From positions 1 through 39,112 of the forward strand of contig DAHVUT010000013.1 in the NCBI GenBank assembly GCA_027328425.1: a DNA stretch of 39,112 nt. The letters are read 5' to 3'. The notes under the pieces were generated by a model. The model had not been told where the DNA came from. It searched no databases and saw only the letters and a program-made list of their open reading frames with translations. The position numbers and the translations under genes are program-made. Source of the DNA: Microcaldota archaeon (lineage in GTDB: Archaea; Micrarchaeota; Micrarchaeia; Micrarchaeales; CABMGC01). Positions 12,753-24,692 of the stretch are shown here, piece after piece (position 1 is the first letter of the stretch; each line of letters starts with the position of its first letter).

Positions 12753-13110
12753 GCGAAAAGAGCTTCTGGACAGCCTCAGGGGCCTTTACTCGAAGGGTTA
12801 CACCTATCTGGTAAAGATATACGCAATAGACTACGTCAAGACGCTGAACGCAATCTACGTTGTACGGAACCTGGAAGAAATGAAAGAAGAGGCACTTGAG
12901 GTAGAGCTGGATCCAGCCGATGCATGGGTGCCGAGCGTGATGCGCATCTACAAGGCCGCAGACTGGTACGAGCGCGAGATGCAGGAGATGTTCGCCATCG
13001 TGATAAGGGACAGGGACGCGGAGCGCCTGCTGCTCGAGAAATGGAACGGCACGGCAGCCCCGCTGCGCAAGAACTTCGCTTGGAGCGAACCTTACGAGAA
13101 GATGGGATGA
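12733..13110 (+). CDS. nuoC: Complex I subunit NuoC
   Basis: This is the 30-kDa-type subunit that binds NuoD. At 125 residues it is short compared with bacterial NuoC, holding the core YLVKIYAIDYVKTLNAIYVV and the signature ADWYEREMQEMF near residues 76-87. It lacks the usual long C-terminal tail and ends at NFAWSEPYEKMG. Translation likely starts at GTG 12733, 7 nt after AGGAG; TTG at 12742 is the alternative. It overlaps nuoB by 20 nt and nuoD by 4. Confidence 0.9.
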   Translation: MVRLKTERKELLDSLRGLYSKGYTYLVKIYAIDYVKTLNAIYVVRNLEEMKEEALEVELDPADAWVPSVMRIYKAADWYEREMQEMFAIVIRDRDAERLLLEKWNGTAAPLRKNFAWSEPYEKMG

Positions 13111-14198
13111 ACACACGAATCAACATAGGGCCTGTGCACCCCAGCACGCATGGAGTGCTGCGCCTAGTCGCGGACATAGACGGAGACACTGTGCTCAACG
13201 TGGAACCGCACATAGGCTTCTTGCACAGGGGGGTGGAGAAGCTTGTGGAGAACAGGATGTACATGCAGAGCCCCACGTACATGGAGAAGCTTGACTATGC
13301 GGCACCCATGTCATACGACGAGCTGTACGTGGCCACAGTAGAGAAGGCCATGGGTGTGGAGATCAAGGAAAGGGCGCAGTGGGTGCGTGTCGTGCTGCTA
13401 GAGCTGCAACGCATCGCCAGCCACCTGCTCTGGCTTGGCACTACTGCTAACGACCTCGGCCAGTTCTTCACGCTTTTCATGTGGACCATGAAGGACAGGG
13501 ACATAATACTGCGCCTGCTCGAGAGGGCGTCGGGGGCGAGGATGTTCTACATGAACATGCGCATAGGCGGTCTTGTGCAGGACCTGCCGCCCGGATTCGG
13601 AGAGAGCGCGCAGGAGGTGCTCGACTATCTCGAGAAGCGCGTGAAGAAGTACGAGGCGTACTTGGAGAGAAACCCGGTATTCGTAGGGAGGACCAGGGGC
13701 GTTGGCATCCTGAACAGGGAGGACGCCATAAGCCTCGGCGTAACGGGTCCGGTGCTGCGCGCGTCGGGCGTGGACTACGACACACGGAAGTACAACGCGT
13801 ACTACGTTTATGGCAAGCTCTCGTTCAGACCCCAGACTAGGAGCGAGGGGGACGTCTTCGCCAGGTACAAGGTCAGGATGCTAGAGATGGGGGAGAGCAT
13901 AAGATTGGTACGGGAGGCACTGGACAGGATGCCCGATGGCGATGCTGTCGGCATGCCCGTAAGGCTCATAACGCCAGGTGCTAAGAACAGGGAAGCCAGA
14001 GCAAGCAGGGAAACGCCCAGGGGCGAGGGGATAATGTATATGATTGCAGACCCGCAGAAGCCGTACAGGCTCGCGATAAGGTCGCCCACATTCGTGAACC
14101 TTGCTGCGCTGCAGCACATAGCGAAGGACTGCAGGATGGCAGACGTATTCGCCATACTGGGAAGCCTGGATATAGTGATGGGAGATGCCGATAAGTAG
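13107..14198 (+). CDS. nuoD: Complex I subunit NuoD (quinone-site subunit)
   Basis: This 363-residue subunit forms the quinone cavity with NuoB and descends from the Ni-Fe hydrogenase large subunit. It starts with INIGPVHPSTHGVLRL, which keeps the quinone-loop histidine, followed by EPHIGFLHRGVEKL, the tyrosine segment PTYMEKLDYAAPMS and DLPPGF. It ends correctly with LDIVMGDADK. The hydrogenase cysteines are absent, as expected for complex I. The start at 13107 is an ATGA overlap with nuoC; its end overlaps nuoH by 14 nt. Confidence 0.97.
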   Translation: MNTRINIGPVHPSTHGVLRLVADIDGDTVLNVEPHIGFLHRGVEKLVENRMYMQSPTYMEKLDYAAPMSYDELYVATVEKAMGVEIKERAQWVRVVLLELQRIASHLLWLGTTANDLGQFFTLFMWTMKDRDIILRLLERASGARMFYMNMRIGGLVQDLPPGFGESAQEVLDYLEKRVKKYEAYLERNPVFVGRTRGVGILNREDAISLGVTGPVLRASGVDYDTRKYNAYYVYGKLSFRPQTRSEGDVFARYKVRMLEMGESIRLVREALDRMPDGDAVGMPVRLITPGAKNREARASRETPRGEGIMYMIADPQKPYRLAIRSPTFVNLAALQHIAKDCRMADVFAILGSLDIVMGDADK

Positions 14199-15198
14199 CC
14201 TGCTCGCGATTGCGCCGCTTCTTCCGGCTTCCATCAGCCCCGGCTCTCTGACCGGCGAGCTCATAGGCATTGCCGAGTATGCCATAGCGATTGCCATGGT
14301 CATAATCGTGTTCGACTACGTCTTCGGCTGGCTGGAGCGCAAGGTGGTGGCGAAGATACAGAAGAGGCACGGCCCCACGTATGCGGGCAAGTATGGATTG
14401 CTGCAGAACATGGCAGACATACTCAAGCTCATGTCGAAGCAGCACGTCGCCCCTGCAAACTCCGACAGACCGATGTTCCTGGCAACGCTGCCCGCCATGC
14501 TTGCTCTCACGCTGTTCCTCGTGATGCTCATTCCGTTCTCGCCCACGTTCTCGGGCTCCAGCTCCGGCTTTGTGCTACTGATTGTGCTCGTTCTAGTATC
14601 GTTCATGCCGCTCGTGATATTCATGAACGGGTTTGCGAGCGGGAACAAGTTTTCAGCGATAAGCGCCGAGCGCTCCGTAGTGATGCTGCTCAGCTACGAA
14701 ATACCGCTCGTGCTTGTCGTAGCGACGACAGCTGCACTAACAGGCAGCTACAGCCTGAATGGAATAGTGGGCGCGCAGTCGCAGCTCTGGTACGTAGTGC
14801 TCATGCCCATAGGCTTCGTGATATTCTTCATAGCTATGCTCGCAGAGCTCGAAAGGCCGCCGTTCGACATGCGCGAAGCAGATTCGGAGCTCATCGCCGG
14901 ATGGCTGACCGATGTAAGCCCGCCGTACTACATGCTCGCGCTCTTCCTGGACTACTCGCGGATGCTGCTAGGCAGCATGCTGATAGCCATACTCTTCTTC
15001 GGCGGATGGAACGGGCCTGTGCTGCCGCCCATAGTCTGGCTGCTGATAAAGGTATTCGCGATTGCATTCTTCATAATGATAGTGAGGGTCACGATGGTAA
15101 GGATGAGGATAGACAGGCTACTGCGCTTCGGCTGGCTTATACTGCTGCCGCTCGCGTTCGTTAATTTAATTGTTACATACGTATTGCTGATTGGGTGA
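14185..15198 (+). CDS. nuoH: Complex I subunit NuoH
   Basis: NuoH links the quinone pocket to the proton pumps. The 337 residues have eight or nine membrane segments. Family marks are GWLERKVVAKIQKRHGPTYA near 49-68 (the first cytoplasmic loop) and AELERPPFDMREADSELIAGW near 221-241 (the acidic quinone-facing loop), both intact. The gene overlaps nuoD at the start and is followed 4 bp later by nuoI. Confidence 0.96.
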   Translation: MPISSLLAIAPLLPASISPGSLTGELIGIAEYAIAIAMVIIVFDYVFGWLERKVVAKIQKRHGPTYAGKYGLLQNMADILKLMSKQHVAPANSDRPMFLATLPAMLALTLFLVMLIPFSPTFSGSSSGFVLLIVLVLVSFMPLVIFMNGFASGNKFSAISAERSVVMLLSYEIPLVLVVATTAALTGSYSLNGIVGAQSQLWYVVLMPIGFVIFFIAMLAELERPPFDMREADSELIAGWLTDVSPPYYMLALFLDYSRMLLGSMLIAILFFGGWNGPVLPPIVWLLIKVFAIAFFIMIVRVTMVRMRIDRLLRFGWLILLPLAFVNLIVTYVLLIG

Positions 15199-15202
15199 CC
15201 AA

Positions 15203-15565
15203 ATGCTGAGACCGCTGCTGGAAAGCGTGAAAGAGCTGGGTGGAGAGCGCTTCACTGTGGAGTTTCCCGAGGAGCGGGAATCGCTGGACGACAGGGAGCG
15301 CTACATGTTCAGACTGGACATGGAGACGTGCGTAAGCTGCGCCGCCTGCGAACGCATCTGCCCGAACAAGACGATAACGATGGTGGAGGTGCTCACCGAC
15401 AGGGGACCCAAGGACATGCCGCAGATAGGCCTGGACCGTTGCCTCTTCTGCGCCCTCTGCGAGGAGGTGTGCCCGACCAAGTGCCTCACACTGACCAAGG
15501 ACTACGGGCTTGAGGCCTACGACAAGCGCTGGTTCGTGAAGAGGCCGGAGGAACTTCAGGGATGA
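15203..15565 (+). CDS. nuoI: Complex I subunit NuoI (two 4Fe-4S clusters)
   Basis: This 120-residue ferredoxin-like subunit carries clusters N6a and N6b. The two motifs are CVSCAACERICP and CLFCALCEEVCP, with all eight cysteines present. I start it at ATG 15203, just after the nuoH stop; an in-frame TTG at 15191 would overlap nuoH. With NuoB it forms the whole Fe-S chain encoded here, since NuoE, F and G are absent. Electrons therefore probably enter directly at NuoI from ferredoxin or another carrier. Confidence 0.95.
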   Translation: MLRPLLESVKELGGERFTVEFPEERESLDDRERYMFRLDMETCVSCAACERICPNKTITMVEVLTDRGPKDMPQIGLDRCLFCALCEEVCPTKCLTLTKDYGLEAYDKRWFVKRPEELQG

Positions 15566-16041
15566 GCATGCTACCGGATCTCCTCCCTGCGCTGCTCGGT
15601 GCGATGCTCGTGACCGCAGGCATATTTGTGTTCGTGCAGCGCAAGCTGCTGCACGCAGTAACAGCATTGGCCGCTGCGGCGGCGGTGAGCGCACTCGTGT
15701 TCCTGTACCTTAACCAGGCGCTCGTTGCACTGCTCCAGCTCCTCATATTCGTGGGCGGCCTGTCTACGTACCTGATGGTGGCGGTGGCTGCCGAGGAGAA
15801 GTTCGTCAACATGCGCAGCGCCGCTTCGTTTGCTGCAGCATCCATACTGCTGGGCGCGGTACTCATCGCATCTGTCTACGGGCTGCCGGCGCGGGCGCCC
15901 AGCGGCACGAACTTCGTGCAGCTCGCCGAATCTGCCATCGGACAGTATTATGGCTTAATGCTCGCTTCCATATTCCTGCTGTTCGCAGTTGCAATCGCGA
16001 GTGTGCTTGTGATAAGGAGGTTTGCGAGACTGGTGAATTGA
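15562..16041 (+). CDS. nuoJ: Complex I subunit NuoJ
   Basis: A 159-residue membrane subunit with five hydrophobic segments (about 7-25, 32-50, 54-76, 86-105 and 131-151). The TM3 glycine-rich stretch QLLIFVGGLSTYLMVAVA is the family's bulged helix, in which an EGI-like Tyr is expected; here a Tyr follows the Gly pair. The gene starts in an ATGA overlap with nuoI and ends in a TGATG overlap with nuoK. Confidence 0.93.
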   Translation: MSMLPDLLPALLGAMLVTAGIFVFVQRKLLHAVTALAAAAAVSALVFLYLNQALVALLQLLIFVGGLSTYLMVAVAAEEKFVNMRSAASFAAASILLGAVLIASVYGLPARAPSGTNFVQLAESAIGQYYGLMLASIFLLFAVAIASVLVIRRFARLVN

Positions 16042-16343
16042 TGCTGGACTACGTTTTCTTTGGCGCTGTGCTGCTTGTGGCGGTAGCGCTCGCGGGGCTC
16101 ATATCCGAGCGCCATTTCGTTTCTATGGTCCTCGCTGTCGAGCTTGTGTTCATAGCCAGCACAGTACTGCTCGCGTACTTCATAACCTATGGCAGCTCGC
16201 CGGGTCCTTCGGCAGTGCCCATGCTGATAGCGATATGGGCGGCTGCCACTGTAGAGGTGATAGCGCTGGTGACGCTTTACATATACATGAAAGCGCACGG
16301 TTCGCAGTTCGACATTAGCAAGCTAGCGAAGCTTAAGTGGTAG
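16041..16343 (+). CDS. nuoK: Complex I subunit NuoK
   Basis: A 100-residue three-helix subunit related to MrpC. The TM2 glutamate that carries protons is present in MVLAVELVFIAS (near residue 35). The TM3 segment TVEVIALVTLYIYMK also has its conserved glutamate. ATG 16041 overlaps the nuoJ stop by one base; TTG at 16038 is also possible but less likely. Confidence 0.94.
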   Translation: MLDYVFFGAVLLVAVALAGLISERHFVSMVLAVELVFIASTVLLAYFITYGSSPGPSAVPMLIAIWAAATVEVIALVTLYIYMKAHGSQFDISKLAKLKW

Positions 16344-16350
16344 TGATAGC

Positions 16351-18120
16351 TTGAACCCGTTGTTTCTTTTGTTGCCTTTGCTTGCCGCCCTGGTAGCGGT
16401 GGCGGCAGACAGGAATGGCTCCAGGGTCAAGTATTACGCGCTCCTAGGCTCAGTCGTTGGGCTCGCGATGCTTCCGCTCGTCGGCTTCGGCACGGATTCG
16501 CTGACGTGGTTCTCAGTAGGCGGCACCGCGATACAGATAACGACCAGCATAACGCCGCTGAGCCTCATGCTGCTGTTTCTGGTGCTTGCGATGGGCAGCC
16601 TGGTGATCGCATACTCTTTCGGCTTCATGGACCTGCCAAGCGAGCAGAAGAGATTCTACGTTGAGATGCTGGGCTTCGAGACAGCGATGCTCGCGTTCGC
16701 GATGTCAGGAGGCTTCATACTGCTCTTCATCGCCTGGGAGTTCCTCAGTCTCACCAGCTACCTGCTGATAGGCTTCTGGCACAACAGGGAGAATGCCATA
16801 GCCGCTGCACGGAAGGCGATAACAATAGTGCTCATAAGCGACATCGCACTGCTTGCAGCAATAGTGATGTTCCTGAACATCTACGGCACGCTCAGCTTTT
16901 CCTCGATACTTGCGGCAGGCGCAAGCGGCAGCCTCCAACTCGCTGCAATGGCACTGCTGCTTGCAGCCGTGATAACCAAATCCGCCCAGTTCCCGGTGCA
17001 AGAATGGCTGACCGACGCGATGGCGGGCCCCACGCCCGTTTCGGCCTATCTCCATAGCACCACTATGGTGAAGGCGGGCGTATTTGTGGTGCTCGTGTTG
17101 CTCCCGCTCTTCTCGGAGGCGGGTATGATGCCTGCACTTCTCGCGATAGCATCGATAACTATAGCTGTGGCTATCACAGGCGCCATGCGTGAGCATAATG
17201 TAAAGCGCGCAATAGCATACTCCACTGTGGAGGAACTCGGGCTCATACTGCTCGCTGCCTCCGTGGGCGCCGTGTTTGCTGCCATCTACTTCTTCTTCGC
17301 ACAGAGTTTCTACAAATCGCTGCTCTTTTTCGGCGCAGGTAGCTCTATAAAGGCGACGGGCTCAGAAGATTTGGGCGTTATAACAGGCCTCGGCAGGAGC
17401 AGACTGGTGAAGTACACCGTGCTTTTCGGGGCGCTCTCCCTGGCCGGATTCATACCTTTCGACGGGTTCTTCGCCAACTTCGGCATAGCGTCAGCGTTTG
17501 CGACGAACCTCGTTGCCTACGCGCTCATAAGCGCGGCCAGCCTCGCTACGAGCTTCTATATATTCAGATGGTTCATGCTGCAGAGCGGGAAGCCAGTCAG
17601 CACAGCTGTGTCGGCAGGTTTTCTAGGACTGCCAAAGAGCATGTCGTACTCCATGGCAGTGCTCGCCGTTTCCACAGTGGCCGCAAGCGGAGCCTTCTTT
17701 GCGTTCCCCAGCGTGTTTGGGATGCAGGGCATAAACCTGCAGGGGCACGCAGGCATGCTCACTGCAGCCATTGAGACACTCGTAGCGGCGGCGGGAGCCA
17801 CGGCCGCCCTCCTGTTCTACAGAAGGAAGGCGACGGTGAAGACTCTCGCAGCCAGGGCCGTGGCTGAACCCGCGCACAGCGCCGGAGTGGCTACAGTAAC
17901 CAATGCAGCATATGCACACCTGGCCGCGTTCGTAGAGGCCGTTGCGACGGGCTTCGCGTTCTTCGATGACAGACTCATATCCGCATACGATATTGTCGGG
18001 CATGTGGCCGTAGCCGCAGGTTCGCACTCGCGAAAGATCGCATCGGGCAGCACGAACACATACATGCTCGTGTTTGCAGCCGGGGTGGCGTTGCTTGCCA
18101 TAGTGGTCGTGGTGGCATAA
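16351..18120 (+). CDS. nuoL: Complex I antiporter-like subunit NuoL
   Basis: This is the largest pump subunit, 589 residues with about 14-16 membrane helices. The TM5 Glu is E130 (IAWEFLSL), the TM7 Lys is K210 (VITKSAQFPVQEWL), and SAYLHSTTMVKAG gives K241 in TM8. At the TM12 position, where the family reads GFFSKD, this protein reads DGFFANFG (371-378), so that lysine is missing. The long lateral-helix region is shorter than in bacteria but present at the C-terminus. Translation starts at TTG 16351; no nearby ATG is available. The last base is shared with the nuoN start. Confidence 0.94.
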   Translation: MNPLFLLLPLLAALVAVAADRNGSRVKYYALLGSVVGLAMLPLVGFGTDSLTWFSVGGTAIQITTSITPLSLMLLFLVLAMGSLVIAYSFGFMDLPSEQKRFYVEMLGFETAMLAFAMSGGFILLFIAWEFLSLTSYLLIGFWHNRENAIAAARKAITIVLISDIALLAAIVMFLNIYGTLSFSSILAAGASGSLQLAAMALLLAAVITKSAQFPVQEWLTDAMAGPTPVSAYLHSTTMVKAGVFVVLVLLPLFSEAGMMPALLAIASITIAVAITGAMREHNVKRAIAYSTVEELGLILLAASVGAVFAAIYFFFAQSFYKSLLFFGAGSSIKATGSEDLGVITGLGRSRLVKYTVLFGALSLAGFIPFDGFFANFGIASAFATNLVAYALISAASLATSFYIFRWFMLQSGKPVSTAVSAGFLGLPKSMSYSMAVLAVSTVAASGAFFAFPSVFGMQGINLQGHAGMLTAAIETLVAAAGATAALLFYRRKATVKTLAARAVAEPAHSAGVATVTNAAYAHLAAFVEAVATGFAFFDDRLISAYDIVGHVAVAAGSHSRKIASGSTNTYMLVFAAGVALLAIVVVVA

Positions 18121-19496
18121 TGCTCCTTGATTACGCTTTTATAGCTTCCATCGCGGTGCTCGTGTTCGGCAGTTTGGCGCTCAGGCTCACTTCCAGCAGG
18201 AGGGCAACGTTTGCCTTCAGCAGCACTATGCTGGCTCTGATACTTGCACTCGCTCTCATGCTCCTGCCCCTCGGCGGCAGCGCCACATACATGGGCGTTT
18301 TGTCGTTCAACCCGTTCTCGTTGTTCTTCGCGGTGCTATTCACTGCCGGCATTATGCTCGTCAATGCGCTCGCGTATGCAAGGTCACGGGATTACGGCAA
18401 CTTCGCCGCCCTTGCCGCTCTCGCGCTGTCGGGCATGTACCTAGTCGCATTCGCGAATTCGCTCGTGTCCGTATTCATAGGACTTGAGCTAATGAGCTTG
18501 CCAAGCGTCTTCGTGGTGCTGCTCTCTAAGCGCGACTCGATGGAGGCTACGGTCAAGCTGTTCATAATGGCGGCGCTCTCCGTTGCTGTGCTTTCACTGG
18601 CAATAGTGCTGGTCTATGGAGCTGCAGGAACGCTGTCGCTGCAGCGGGCTAACGCCGGCGCGTTGATGGGCTTCGCCTTCGTGCTTTTCGTGGCGGCGCT
18701 TGGTTTCGAGGCGTCCGTATTCCCATTCAACGTGCTGCTGCCCGACGTGTACCAGGGTTCGGGCGCATACGCGACGGCCATGCTGGGAGGCGTGAACAAG
18801 AAAGTGGGCTTCGCTGCGCTCCTTCAAGTGCTGATCCTGCTGTTCATAACGTCGAGGGCGGACTTCATGGTCGTGGCGGTGCTGGCGGTGGCGGCCATGT
18901 TCTACGGCAACCTGGTCGCGCTGCTCCAGACGGACCTCAAGCGCCTCCTTGCCTATTCGTCGATATCACAGGCGGGCTACATACTCATAGGCATATCGGT
19001 GGCGAACCAGGCTGGCATTAGCGGCAGCCTCGTGCAGATATTCGCGCACACATTCCTGTTCATAGGCGCCATGAGCATAGTCGCTTGGCTCGAGAGCAGG
19101 GGGAGGAGCGGAATAGATGACACCCTAGGGCTGTACAAAGACAACAGGTTCATGGCGATAGCGCTGAGCGTGTTCCTGCTCTCCATGGTGGGGCTTCCAT
19201 TCACCACAGGCTTTGTGGGCAAATTCCTCATATTCCTTAGCGCAGTCAACAGCGGGCTCGCCATCCTTGCGATACTAGGAATAGTTAACAGCGTCATATC
19301 GGTGTTCTATTATGCGAAGGTGCTCACTTCAGTGTACACGGCGAAGGCAGGAGGCTACAGAGTCGGTGTAGACGCGCCTACACTTGCAGTGGTGGGCGCT
19401 TGTCTTGCGCTCACTGTGTTTTTGGGAGTGTACCCGCAGCCGCTGGTGCACATCGCTGGCAGCGCCTCCTCCTATCTATTCACCGCAGGCGTGTGA
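18120..19496 (+). CDS. nuoN: Complex I antiporter-like subunit NuoN, key Lys replaced
   Basis: The 458-residue protein is NuoN-like by LLPDVYQGSG, LLAYSSISQAGYILIGI and GFVGKFLIFLSA. The TM5 Glu (E123 in FIGLELMSLPS), a TM8-side Lys (K227/K228) and the TM12 Lys (GFVGKF) are kept. In TM7 the family motif GFKxSxxPFH reads GFEASVFPFN, which changes the proton-relay Lys (E. coli K217) to Glu 197 and the following His to Asn 204. It ends the operon; the convergent ATPase gene ends 7 bp further on. nuoM is missing from the operon and lies at 23277-24692. Confidence 0.92.
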   Translation: MLLDYAFIASIAVLVFGSLALRLTSSRRATFAFSSTMLALILALALMLLPLGGSATYMGVLSFNPFSLFFAVLFTAGIMLVNALAYARSRDYGNFAALAALALSGMYLVAFANSLVSVFIGLELMSLPSVFVVLLSKRDSMEATVKLFIMAALSVAVLSLAIVLVYGAAGTLSLQRANAGALMGFAFVLFVAALGFEASVFPFNVLLPDVYQGSGAYATAMLGGVNKKVGFAALLQVLILLFITSRADFMVVAVLAVAAMFYGNLVALLQTDLKRLLAYSSISQAGYILIGISVANQAGISGSLVQIFAHTFLFIGAMSIVAWLESRGRSGIDDTLGLYKDNRFMAIALSVFLLSMVGLPFTTGFVGKFLIFLSAVNSGLAILAILGIVNSVISVFYYAKVLTSVYTAKAGGYRVGVDAPTLAVVGACLALTVFLGVYPQPLVHIAGSASSYLFTAGV

Positions 19497-19503
19497 ACAG
19501 GCA

Positions 19504-22227
19504 CTAGCGCTTGCCGTACCTGCTGTAGAACGTAAGGTATCTTCCGAGCACTGTCGCAGGTGCGGAAGGCCTCGCCTTCTGTATGAGCGCGTATATGCTA
19601 TCTTCGTTTATCTCGATCTCCTTGCCTGCTTCCAGGCTCGCCTCGAGCGTGTTGAGCTTCACCTGCCTGCAGACGTTGGCTATGTCGGCCCCGGTGTAAC
19701 CTTCGGTCTCTTCGGCCAGCTTGTCGAAGTTCGTATCGCTGACGAGGGGTGCCTTCTCCAGGTACTGTCGAAACAGCTCGGCCCTACTCTTCTTGTCCGG
19801 AGGCGGGGCGTATACGAGCCTATCGAAGCGGCCCGGCCTGAGCATCGCCGGGTCGAGCACGTCGGGCCTGTTGGTCGACGCCACGACCACCACGTCAGGA
19901 ACGTCCTTGAGCTTGTCGAACTCCTCGAGAAGCTCTCCCGTCAGCTGCAGACCGTACTGCGATGCTGTGTCGCGCGACGGCACGAGCGCGTCTACCTCAT
20001 CTACGAACACTATTGACGGCGAGCTCTCCTTGGCCCTGTCGAATATGCCCTTGACCGTGATGCTCGCCTTATCCTGTCCGTATTTGGCTATGTCGTAGCC
20101 CGATATTGAGAACACCTTCACCCCGCCGAGCTCGTTCGCCACCGCTTGTATGAGCATCGTCTTGCCCGTCCCCGGCGGCCCGAAGAGCAGTATGCCCTTA
20201 ATGTTGCCTATGTCGTACTTCTTGAGCAGAGACGGGTGCATTATAGGTATCTCCACCGCCTCGTGGAGAGCCTTCTTGGCCTCATCTAGGCCCACCACAT
20301 CATCCAGCGTTATCTTCTTGCCCTCCTCCACCTGCGTCTCGGGATGCATGCGCCTCTCGTAGTCCACCTTGAATGTGTTGTATTCCTCGAGCTGCGCCAA
20401 TGACGTGGACGGCTTGGTGCTCTTTATGCCCCTCACCACGTCCAGCATCTTTATTGCGAGCACCTCATGCTTCGAAATCGCCCTTTCTCCCACCTCCCTG
20501 CCTACATTCTCGCAAACGTTCTTTATGTCCGCTGGCGAATATCTGTTTGTTATGCTTGCGAGCTTGGCAAAGTCCATCTCCTTGCTGACAGGCAGTTTCT
20601 CCAGGTAGTGCTCGAACAACTTTGCCCTGGCGGACTGGTCGGGGAGCTGCATGTAAAGTATCTTGTCGAAACGGCCGGGGCGCATGACAGCAGGATCGAG
20701 GAGCTGCGGCACATTGGTGGCGCCCACTATGACCACGTCTGATATAGTCTTGAAGCCGTCCATCTCGCTGAGCAGCGTTGTTATGAGCTCCCTGCCGCTC
20801 TGGCTCTCCTGCATCTCCCTCTTACCCGCTATGCTGTCTATCTCGTCGAAGAAGAGTATGCACGGAGTGTGCTTCTTCGCAGTGGCGAATATCTTAGCCA
20901 GCGTGCTCGCACTCTCCCCAGGATATGGCGATATCAGCGACGATGTTGAGACGTAGTAGAAGGCTGCACGGATGTCGTTTGCCAGCGCCCTCATTATGAG
21001 CGTCTTGCCTGTTCCAGGCGGCCCGAATAGAAGCAACCCCTTGGCCGGGCTCACGTTATACGCCCCTGCTATCTCCCTGTGCTCTATAGGAGCCAGTATC
21101 GCCTCCTTGAGCTCGCGCTTGGTGCCTTCATAGTTCACCACATCGTCCAGCGTCTCTGAAGTGCCTCTGGTAAGGTCCTCGAACGCGACGCCGAACTTGC
21201 CGAGTATATCCTGTTTCATCACATCCAGGGCCTGCACCACGTCCACGTCCGATGCCTCAAGCACGAACAGGAATATTGGCGTTGCTATGAAGCTCACCAG
21301 CACCATGAAGTTCACGCTCGATTGGTTCAGGAAGGAGCAGAACAGGTACGAAAGCACGAGCAGAGCGCCGAGCAGGCTGGAGAGCGTGCCCTTGTATGCG
21401 TGCCTGCTCCTTACTGCATAGCTGCTCATCGTGAAGGCTACGAAGAGCCAAACGAGCAGCTGCAGCACCGTGTACTGCGCCTTGTATGCAAGCGCCACGG
21501 CGGCGTAGTAGAATGCATTGAAGAGATTGCCGGCCGCCTCGCCGCTGAAGAACGCCGAGAATGCGTTGCTCCATGCGCTGCCGAAATTGCTCAACGTCGT
21601 GGGTGGGCTCGTGGCGGTAAGATCGTTAGTGAATGGAAGACCGCTGAGCAGCGTGTGTCCCTGCAGCGAGCTGAACACGAACGGGCCCGATACGGGCAGA
21701 TTCGCCATTGTCGCCACTATGGCCATGACCGCGATTGCCACCGCGCCTATCCCCGCGCTTCTCTTGAAGCCTAGCACGAGCACCGCGAACACAAGGGCGG
21801 GTAGCTCAAGATACGCGCCCAGATACGACAGCGGCAACACGCTGAGGGCAACGCCGTACGATATCGTCCTGTAGTTCTTGTATCCGAGGAACAGCGACGC
21901 GCTTATAGCCAGCGTGGCTATCCATGCGAGGAGCGGGGCCTGGTATATTATCATGGGCAGAGCGAGCAGCAGGAGTGCCATGAGGCCCAGCAGTGGCTGG
22001 AGGAAAGTGAAAGCGAAGACCACTGCGAGGAGCACTATGAATAAGGGCAAGGGATAGAACTGGAAGGCAATGCCTATGCTTATGAATGCAAAGCTCGTTG
22101 CGAGCGAATCATGGAAATTGCGGTTGCTGACCAGCTGCTTCGCATAATCCTTGAGCGCATACAGCGGAAGCGGCGTTATACTGCGCCCGAACCCCGCTAT
22201 TCCAAACATTTTCCTCGGCAAAACCAA
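19504..22227 (-). CDS. Membrane-embedded tandem AAA+ ATPase, CDC48-like
   Basis: A 907-residue protein with two complete AAA+ modules of the CDC48/p97 type behind a membrane domain. Residues about 40-335 hold roughly eight to ten hydrophobic helices, with one larger polar loop at about 180-225 (HTLLSGLPFTNDLTATSPP). D1 has GPPGTGKT at 402-409, FFDEID at 459-464, sensor N505 and RPGR at 516-519. D2 has GPPGTGKT at 683-690, FVDEVD at 741-746, N786 and RPGR at 797-800. D1's pore loop is PYPGES and D2's is KYGQDK. The usual N-domain for cofactors is absent, as is an FtsH-type HExxH. I infer an ATP-driven extractase or unfoldase acting at the membrane. The start is TTG 22227 or ATG 22209. Confidence 0.88.
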   Translation of the reverse strand: MVLPRKMFGIAGFGRSITPLPLYALKDYAKQLVSNRNFHDSLATSFAFISIGIAFQFYPLPLFIVLLAVVFAFTFLQPLLGLMALLLLALPMIIYQAPLLAWIATLAISASLFLGYKNYRTISYGVALSVLPLSYLGAYLELPALVFAVLVLGFKRSAGIGAVAIAVMAIVATMANLPVSGPFVFSSLQGHTLLSGLPFTNDLTATSPPTTLSNFGSAWSNAFSAFFSGEAAGNLFNAFYYAAVALAYKAQYTVLQLLVWLFVAFTMSSYAVRSRHAYKGTLSSLLGALLVLSYLFCSFLNQSSVNFMVLVSFIATPIFLFVLEASDVDVVQALDVMKQDILGKFGVAFEDLTRGTSETLDDVVNYEGTKRELKEAILAPIEHREIAGAYNVSPAKGLLLFGPPGTGKTLIMRALANDIRAAFYYVSTSSLISPYPGESASTLAKIFATAKKHTPCILFFDEIDSIAGKREMQESQSGRELITTLLSEMDGFKTISDVVIVGATNVPQLLDPAVMRPGRFDKILYMQLPDQSARAKLFEHYLEKLPVSKEMDFAKLASITNRYSPADIKNVCENVGREVGERAISKHEVLAIKMLDVVRGIKSTKPSTSLAQLEEYNTFKVDYERRMHPETQVEEGKKITLDDVVGLDEAKKALHEAVEIPIMHPSLLKKYDIGNIKGILLFGPPGTGKTMLIQAVANELGGVKVFSISGYDIAKYGQDKASITVKGIFDRAKESSPSIVFVDEVDALVPSRDTASQYGLQLTGELLEEFDKLKDVPDVVVVASTNRPDVLDPAMLRPGRFDRLVYAPPPDKKSRAELFRQYLEKAPLVSDTNFDKLAEETEGYTGADIANVCRQVKLNTLEASLEAGKEIEINEDSIYALIQKARPSAPATVLGRYLTFYSRYGKR

Positions 22228-22325: not shown

Positions 22326-22422
22326 CCCGCAGTAGCTCAATGGTAGAGCGCTCGCCTGTAGTTTGGTCCTGACGCGCAAGTCAGAAAGCGAGATGTTGCT
22401 GGTTCGACTCCGGCCTGCGGGA
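22326..22422 (+). tRNA. tRNA-Tyr (GUA) with a 25-nt intron
   Basis: The acceptor CCCGCAG pairs with CTGCGGG, with discriminator A; the C1-G72 pair is typical of archaeal tRNA-Tyr. The D stem is GCTC/GAGC, the anticodon stem CTCGC/GCGAG and the T stem GCTGG/CCGGC. The mature loop would be CTGTAGA if 22362-22386 is removed, the canonical 37/38 position. A relaxed bulge-helix-bulge can be drawn: CTG of the loop pairs with CAG in the intron, and AAA forms the 3' bulge. Confidence 0.93.
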
Positions 22423-23276: not shown

Positions 23277-24692
23277 CTAGGCCGCGAATGGCGACAGAAG
23301 CATTCCAGGAAGCACGCCCAGCACTATTGTTGACACCGCGAGTAGCAATATCGAGACCAATATCGACCTGCCGGGGTATGCAAAAGGCAATATTCCCTTC
23401 GATGAGTTCATTATCGAGCGCTCTATCACCCAGAAGAACACCGCACCAATTATCAACACAGCTGCAAGCGGAGCGACCCCGAACCTCCCAAATGCGTGCA
23501 CGGCCCCAGAGAACACGAGCAGCTCGCCAACGAAACCAGCGGTGAGCGGCAGGCCTATTGTCGCGAACGAGCCAAAGATGAACGAGTAGGCCAGCATCGG
23601 CGTGTTCTTTACCACACTCTTTAGTTTGGATACCAGCAGCGTGCCGTACGCTTCGTCAATCGCACCTGCAACAAGGAAGAGCAGCGATATCGCTATTCCG
23701 TGGCTCAGCATCAGGTACAGACCGCCCTGAACCCCAAGCGTGCCTATCATAGCTATGCCGAGCGAGGCTATGCCCATGTCTAGCATGCTCGCGTATGCTA
23801 TTGTGCGCTTGATATGTATCTGCTTTACTGCGACGAGCGCGCTGTACAGCGCCGAGAAGCCGAGCAATGCCGCTATATACATGGAGTACGCGGATGCTAA
23901 GGGCAGCATAAGGAACGCCAGGAGCAGGCCGTAGCCCCCGAACTTGGGCAGTATGCCTGCGAGCACCATGCTGCCTGTTGCCGGCGCCTCGGTGTACGCG
24001 TCTGCCATCCAGCCGTGGAACGGGAACGAAGGCAGCTTTATCATGAAGGCCAGGAGCAGCAGGGCCAGCGCTAGCGTCTGCGTGGCCGCAGGTATGGATT
24101 GTGACTGTGAGATTATGCCGGCTATGCTGAACGTATTGGGCGCGGTGCCCGAGTACACCACCATGATACCTATCAGCATCACAAGGCTGGCCGCTATGGA
24201 GTAGACGAGGAACTTCATGGCCGCGTAGCGCCTGTCATAGCCGCCGAATATGTAGATGACGAAGAACATCGCTACTTCGCTGAGCTCGAAGAACAGATAA
24301 AAGAAGACAAGGTTGCCGGACAGGAACAGGCCAAAGGCCGAGCCCGAGACAAGCAGGAAGAGTGTGTTGTAGATCCTGAACGACTCCTTTATGAAATGCT
24401 TCGCCACGATTGCTGAGGCGAGCAGCACTATCGCAGTCATTACGACGAATATGGCGCCATACTGGGTCAGCGAGAAAACCAAACTTATGCCGAGGCTGCT
24501 TATGTACGGCAGCGTGAACGAGAGCTGCGCGAACCCCTGGCTCAGGCCCGAACCCACGGCGGCAATCGCAAGTGCTGACGCAAGCAGTGTTGCAGCCAGC
24601 GCAACTTCAAAAGAGCGTTTCTCCGGAATCAGGAAGAGCGCTATTGCCGAAAGGAACGGTATGAATACGACAAGCGCCAGGAGAGGAAGCAC
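23277..24692 (-). CDS. nuoM: Complex I antiporter-like subunit NuoM (detached from operon)
   Basis: A 471-residue membrane protein with about 13-14 helices. NuoM identity rests on MIKLPSFPFHGWMADAYTEA, GSMVLAGILPKFGGYGLL and LTAGFVGELLVF, where the TM12 position is Glu as in other NuoM. The TM5 Glu is in LFFELSEVAMF and the TM7 Lys in FMIKLP; TM8 carries K in LPKFGGYG. All pump residues are therefore standard, unlike in NuoL and NuoN here. GTG 24692 is the likely start, about 36 nt after a TTTAAATAAG box. It lies 3.8 kb past nuoN, on the other strand, behind the ribosomal operon. Confidence 0.94.
   Translation of the reverse strand: MLPLLALVVFIPFLSAIALFLIPEKRSFEVALAATLLASALAIAAVGSGLSQGFAQLSFTLPYISSLGISLVFSLTQYGAIFVVMTAIVLLASAIVAKHFIKESFRIYNTLFLLVSGSAFGLFLSGNLVFFYLFFELSEVAMFFVIYIFGGYDRRYAAMKFLVYSIAASLVMLIGIMVVYSGTAPNTFSIAGIISQSQSIPAATQTLALALLLLAFMIKLPSFPFHGWMADAYTEAPATGSMVLAGILPKFGGYGLLLAFLMLPLASAYSMYIAALLGFSALYSALVAVKQIHIKRTIAYASMLDMGIASLGIAMIGTLGVQGGLYLMLSHGIAISLLFLVAGAIDEAYGTLLVSKLKSVVKNTPMLAYSFIFGSFATIGLPLTAGFVGELLVFSGAVHAFGRFGVAPLAAVLIIGAVFFWVIERSIMNSSKGILPFAYPGRSILVSILLLAVSTIVLGVLPGMLLSPFAA

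Follow-up and report, generated by a model that had tools for sequence, protein, structure and literature searches.

A gene on the minus strand of the window (the whole 39,112-nucleotide stretch of Micrarchaeota DNA analysed here) encodes a membrane-embedded tandem AAA+ ATPase, and this protein belongs to a family that is conserved in most Micrarchaeota families. We propose, with a probability of roughly one half, that it acts as a stand-alone, protease-free, membrane-embedded double-ring unfoldase/dislocase, which would take hold of polypeptides on the membrane side and draw them into the cytosol; the hexamer, the substrate and the direction of pulling are what we infer in this proposal. The gene is placed as follows.

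19504-22227, minus strand: entire gene for the membrane-embedded tandem AAA+ ATPase; 907 aa if the TTG at 22227 is the start, 901 aa from the alternative ATG at 22209 (ORF, and one open frame in about 200 relatives)

Two tRNA genes lie upstream on the opposite strand and a complex I operon lies downstream in convergent orientation, so that the tandem AAA+ gene stands alone. A tRNA of 97 bases (22326-22422, plus strand), adjoining tRNA-Asp, was found by Rfam and missed by ARAGORN, and probably carries an intron. The complex I operon of this Micrarchaeota genome is of the nuo/Fpo type (12924-19496, plus strand), and a gene for a further antiporter-like subunit flanks the AAA gene on its far side (23277-24692, minus strand). 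This position between complex I genes and another antiporter-like subunit, seen in the window and in the genus, would suit an assembly or quality-control factor for membrane complexes such as complex I, similar to Bcs1 or the m-AAA protease. We consider such a function very unlikely, as the linkage is confined to the genus and one looser case (L058), is absent in nearly all other families, and involves a gene that is convergent with the nuo operon and outside it; a complex I role deduced from the neighbourhood was rejected because of this restriction to the genus. Comparison across families showed that conservation of the gene neighbourhood stops at the genus and revealed no conserved operon partner, a lack that fits a self-contained machine.

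The occurrence search covered Micrarchaeota genomes only. Using a profile built from just the membrane domain (A1) against 301 of these genomes, we detected the domain in 209, including 78 of the 96 best genomes, nearly always inside a single stop-free open frame of 900-990 aa; frames shorter than this lay mostly at contig ends. A broader profile (A3), run on 59 genomes in which the A1 search had found no member or a distant one, recovered the domain in almost every genome sampled from families f3-f21 (G010 and G106 being the exceptions), and with both profiles together nearly all tested members of families f1-f21 carry the membrane domain. Profile A3 found it in 0 of 14 sampled genomes of families f22-f28, which live without it, so that some lineages can dispense with the function. 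The earlier note had asked whether other archaeal genomes share the domain order and whether a missed frameshift might have joined a separate gene to the N-terminal part; the same order recurs in a single open frame across about 200 genomes, which rules out a missed frameshift, a fusion artefact or a local fusion and argues against chance. Close relatives in named assemblies are all MAGs, labelled Candidatus Micrarchaeota or archaeon, with 92% to 62% identity, and viral contigs contained no relative. One genome (G270) has two divergent full-length copies (L065, L066) about 30 kb apart. Compared with its closest relative, the membrane part has a dN/dS ratio of 0.06; comparisons with others, in which dS approaches saturation, give about 0.20-0.25. 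These values indicate that this part is under purifying selection. Distances of the N-domain correlate with those of D1 (r = 0.91) and D2 (r = 0.83), and the first of these correlations in particular suggests that the parts evolved together.

The motor part of the protein consists of two AAA+ modules with the following elements.

20428-21159, minus strand: AAA+ module D1, residues 357-600 (Pfam AAA at 398-527; catalytic residues invariant in 23 members)
21001-21024, minus strand: D1 Walker A, GPPGTGKT, residues 402-409 (motif)
20914-20931, minus strand: D1 pore loop 1, SPYPGE, residues 433-438 (aromatic in 19/23 and 51/55 relatives; intein site in six deep-branching members)
20836-20859, minus strand: D1 Walker B, ILFFDEID, residues 457-464 (motif)
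20665-20682, minus strand: D1 arginine-finger motif, RPGRFD, residues 516-521 (motif; R516 and R519 invariant)
19588-20325, minus strand: AAA+ module D2, residues 635-880 (Pfam; catalytic residues invariant in 23 members)
20158-20181, minus strand: D2 Walker A, GPPGTGKT, residues 683-690 (motif)
19990-20013, minus strand: D2 Walker B, IVFVDEVD, residues 739-746 (motif)
19822-19839, minus strand: D2 arginine-finger motif, RPGRFD, residues 797-802 (motif)

Pfam recognises two AAA domains plus AAA_lid_3, and the two intact modules described in the earlier note were recovered exactly, with Walker A at 402 and 683, Walker B at 457-464 and 739-746, and RPGR motifs at 516 and 797. Among 23 diverse members, K408, T409, D461, E462, N505, R516 and R519 are invariant in D1, as are K689, D743, E744, N786, R797 and R800 in D2. 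As the Walker A, Walker B, sensor-1 and arginine-finger residues of both rings are invariant, D1 and D2 are both predicted to be catalytically active and should hydrolyse ATP. The D1 pore loop has an aromatic residue in 70 of 78 members (19/23 plus 51/55), reading SPYPGES near the window's protein and QWYGES in deep branches. Aromatic pore loops of AAA+ rings are a mark of threading (PMC7226402, PMC5447069), pointing to D1 as a threading ring. D2 has such an aromatic in just about 5 of the 23 members, judged on aligned segments, and may therefore work differently from D1. In the CDC48 of the same genome, pore-loop aromatics are found in both rings. The family keeps the aromatic in D1 rather than D2, the reverse of eukaryotic Cdc48, where aromatic pore loops occur only in D2 (PMC7226402).

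The claim that the protein lacks a zinc protease held as well: the motif search found no HExxH, and Pfam and motif searches found no protease domain. Only about 30 residues follow D2, with no Lon S16 protease domain. The C-termini of the family are mostly YGxR and never HbYX, while the CDC48 proteins of carrier genomes, including this one, end in MYR. Lacking both a protease domain and HbYX, the protein is expected neither to degrade substrates nor to dock to the 20S core by that route, and a direct proteasome ATPase was ruled out by the missing HbYX.

The N-terminal part of the protein comprises the membrane domain and the segment joining it to D1.

21253-22116, minus strand: membrane domain, residues 38-325, ten predicted TM helices, N-in/C-in, orphan domain (averaged hydropathy and charge of 79 members; AF2 helices, low confidence; without Pfam, PHROG or PDB sequence match)
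21475-21705, minus strand: predicted extracytoplasmic loop between TM7 and TM8, residues ~175-251, most variable part (hydropathy gap; pN above the rest of the N-domain)
21160-21252, minus strand: conserved linker helix between TM10 and D1 (ALDVMKQDILGKFG..), residues 326-356 (conservation in 23 members; AF2 helix 331-343)

Eight to ten hydrophobic helices in about 300 residues had been proposed, and ten fits best. Hydropathy averaged over 79 relatives gave ten TM maxima within residues 41-323, located at 41-57, 57-73, 79-95, 99-115 and 124-140 for the first five and at 136-152, 158-174, 252-268, 285-301 and 307-323 for the others. Basic residues are found in the N-terminal segment and at 117/120, 155/156 and 273/275/279, giving positive-inside loops at R120, K155/R156 and R275, and the long loop 174-252 has a negative net charge. 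This positive-inside pattern indicates that both ends and both AAA rings lie in the cytosol, and the topology predicted from it, N-in/C-in, places the AAA part inside the cell. In the linker, K338 and F345 are invariant and D340 is near-invariant among 23 members.

Searches of the membrane domain against Pfam, PHROGs and PDB sequences returned no credible match. The absence of a soluble N-domain, likewise noted before, was confirmed: CDC48_N and CDC48_2 (PF02359, PF02933) gave no match in the N-domain of any of 23 members, and the canonical CDC48 of the same genome, used as positive control, matched both. AF2 gave a mean pLDDT of 39.5 for the membrane domain alone (six-sequence alignment) and 56.8 for the full-length protein, with values below 50 over most of the membrane domain. 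The full-length model shows ten helices at the places predicted by hydropathy, together with the linker helix 331-343; as the arrangement of the helices is not trustworthy, we used the model only for placing helices and AAA folds and make no fold claim for the membrane domain.

The best-conserved residues of the membrane part are P59, G81, Y95-Q96-x-P98, W102, G153, K155/R156, Q256, S284 and E324. One could suppose that the membrane domain is itself a transporter or an enzyme and that the AAA rings are a regulatory or gating motor without protein threading, given that ten TM helices are a transporter-like number, that the position of Q256, where TM8 begins, holds a polar residue (Q/E/D) in 99% of members, and that Q96 is 97% conserved. 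The earlier note had proposed a search for conserved residues inside the membrane helices; the 79-member profile shows no conserved charged residues deep within them. No transporter or enzyme family matches the domain, and the conserved pore-loop aromatics argue for threading, so we regard a transporter or enzyme as quite unlikely.

We then compared the protein with known AAA families. Its scores fall below the cut-offs of the CDC48 model TIGR01243 (436.7 bits, cut-off 802.65), the PAN model TIGR01242 (392.3 bits, cut-off 500) and the FtsH model TIGR01241 (377.6 bits, cut-off 600). Taken alone, D1 has its highest scores with PAN (214 bits) and with the D2 portion of the CDC48 model. For D2 the highest score is with that D2 portion of CDC48 (236 bits), and FtsH_fam gives 197 bits. 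The best PDB matches, by sequence and by model (Foldseek), are p97/Cdc48. Trees of AAA modules, which left out PAN, NSF and CdvC, place family D1 as one group and family D2 as one group, suggesting that the tandem is older than the radiation of the family. In the tree of 55 AAA modules both family modules stand apart from CDC48 D1 (100/100) and group with a TPR-AAA protein (98/92), whereas in a smaller tree without long branches the group positions shifted and the TPR-AAA grouping proved unstable; internal duplication as the origin of the tandem is suggested by the first tree and not settled by the second. The free trees paired neither family D1 with CDC48 D1 nor D2 with CDC48 D2, and in AU tests on the smaller tree the D1 pairing was not rejected (p = 0.17) and the D2 pairing was marginally rejected (p = 0.036). 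The earlier description as CDC48-like is weak as a statement of ancestry, given the low score and module trees that do not recover D1-D1 and D2-D2. A CDC48 with a swapped N-domain was rejected on the score, the missing HbYX and the unpaired modules; by the trees, the tandem may be either a rebuilt CDC48 or an independent one.

The TPR plus single-AAA protein (about 480-560 aa; L004 on C15 of this genome, L134-L137, L108) is conserved and has a hydrophobic tail and a terminal F. It is present in sampled carriers, and six sampled f22-f28 genomes gave no similar AAA match. Its grouping with family D1 in one tree, and the resemblance to NSF of a tandem AAA with a conserved aromatic pore loop in one ring, might suggest membrane remodelling or fusion of the NSF or Vps4 kind. 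We find this improbable: no adaptor or SNARE-like partner was seen, the grouping does not hold in the second tree, and a fixed place in one membrane is more in keeping with extraction. In G144, a 606-aa double AAA (L107, contig C15), considered as a relative without the N-domain, proved to be a different protein; it has no membrane domain and an aberrant D1 with DNID in place of the Walker B DExD.

With CDC48/p97/VAT the family shares two tandem AAA+ modules, both with complete catalytic residues, but it has ten TM helices in place of CDC48_N/CDC48_2, lacks HbYX, conserves the aromatic pore loop in D1 only and occurs beside a separate true CDC48 in the same genome. Like the FtsH, m-AAA and i-AAA proteases it has an N-terminal membrane part followed by AAA, but with two AAA modules, with ten TM helices where those proteases have one or two, and with no M41 metalloprotease. 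Archaeal LonB is also a membrane-bound archaeal AAA+ protein; the family differs in having no Lon protease domain, and LonB is encoded separately. PAN has a single AAA module and HbYX, in contrast to two modules without HbYX here. Some AAA proteins of Sulfolobus were reportedly found to be membrane-bound (MBA) by Serek-Heuberger et al. in 2009. The open-access literature searched, which covers few subscription papers, gave no account of the family; leaving aside the Sulfolobus MBA proteins, the family appears, within that literature, to be undescribed.

The earlier suggestion that the protein replaces FtsH, to be checked by the absence of FtsH or LonB, did not survive. LonB scored over the cut-off in 266 of 301 Micrarchaeota genomes and in 5 of 6 same-genus relatives, and is essentially universal in the phylum as judged by these matches. 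Our own genome gave no LonB match, a gap that fits its 72% completeness. The 20S proteasome was found in 15 of 15 tested genomes, and CDC48 in 12 of 12 sampled genomes, carriers and non-carriers, with open frames of 713-800 aa (G286 excepted). Replacement of LonB was ruled out by this coexistence, and the presence of LonB, CDC48 and 20S beside the membrane AAA leaves extraction rather than degradation as the likely niche. Contig C9 of the genome also encodes a 600-aa secreted or membrane protein (L045) with a Lon S16 protease domain and no AAA module.

Each chain has a ten-helix membrane domain with both ends inside the cell, a short conserved linker helix and two catalytically complete AAA+ modules in the cytosol, an order kept across most of the phylum. 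In the unfoldase/dislocase that we propose, six chains, as AAA biology would lead one to expect, would assemble into a double ring suspended beneath about 60 TM helices that are themselves arranged in a ring. The aromatic pore loops of D1, facing the membrane, would grip a polypeptide arriving from or through the membrane, and ATP hydrolysis in D1 and D2 would pull it through D1, then D2, into the cytosol, the direction (membrane face to D1 to D2) being that of other N-terminally anchored AAA motors. Substrates would presumably be membrane proteins, and an extracted polypeptide could refold in the cytosol or pass to CDC48-20S or LonB. The machine would act like Msp1, like p97-driven extraction or like FtsH minus its protease, the membrane part being integral to the motor, and would work alongside the usual membrane protease, not in its place. 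Msp1/ATAD1, the protease-free membrane AAA+ extraction motors to which this action is likened, have one TM helix and one AAA module as against ten and two. Known dislocases such as Msp1 and FtsH need only one or two TM helices, which suggests an extra role for the large membrane part of the family.

A rival reading is a protein-conducting translocase, in which the membrane domain, as a hexamer, would itself serve as the channel, with the AAA rings pulling polypeptides across the membrane or releasing them. An anchor would need far fewer than ten TM helices per chain, conserved residues are found along the loops of both faces (YQxP 95-98 outside; R120, KR155/156 and R275 inside) and both ATPase rings are intact. 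A precedent would be Ycf2-FtsHi of chloroplasts, a protease-dead membrane AAA assembly proposed to pull preproteins across the membrane, so that protease-free membrane AAA import motors have been proposed elsewhere (PMC7054747). AF2, however, gives no trustworthy fold or pore for the membrane domain, and the neighbourhood comparison showed no linked signal-peptide or receptor genes. To our knowledge no import substrates are known in archaea, and we hold translocation to be rather doubtful. Ycf2-FtsHi also differs from the family in being a heteromer derived from FtsH, without a tandem AAA and a ten-helix domain in a single chain. Equally speculative, if perhaps a shade less so, is a hexameric protein-conducting channel made by the ten-helix domain and fused with a double-ring motor of its own. 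Such a one-gene retrotranslocon or import machine would have arisen with its own tandem AAA in Micrarchaeota; other organisms assemble the equivalent from a separate channel and CDC48/FtsH components.

As a rule, AAA+ unfoldases gain access to membrane proteins by way of separate adaptors, or else have one or two TM helices as anchors. A conserved family with ten TM helices fused to a tandem AAA motor in each chain would join channel, receptor and motor in one polypeptide, offering a compact model for pulling proteins out of or across membranes. The membrane AAA is a near phylum-wide gene in archaea with reduced genomes, and its retention there suggests that it is likely to matter.

Inteins were observed in the D1 pore loop of six members (L110 in G098, L111 in G043, L112 in G040, L113 in G014, L114 in G060 and L094 in G050), inserted between WYGE (WFGE in L094) and SEKN. 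They comprise forms of about 500 aa, most with DOD-like endonuclease motifs, and one mini-intein of 177 aa; L110 may contain a second intein. In a non-carrier genome, CDC48 has an open frame of 1392 aa (L109, G286:C5), apparently with an intein near the corresponding D1 GES site.
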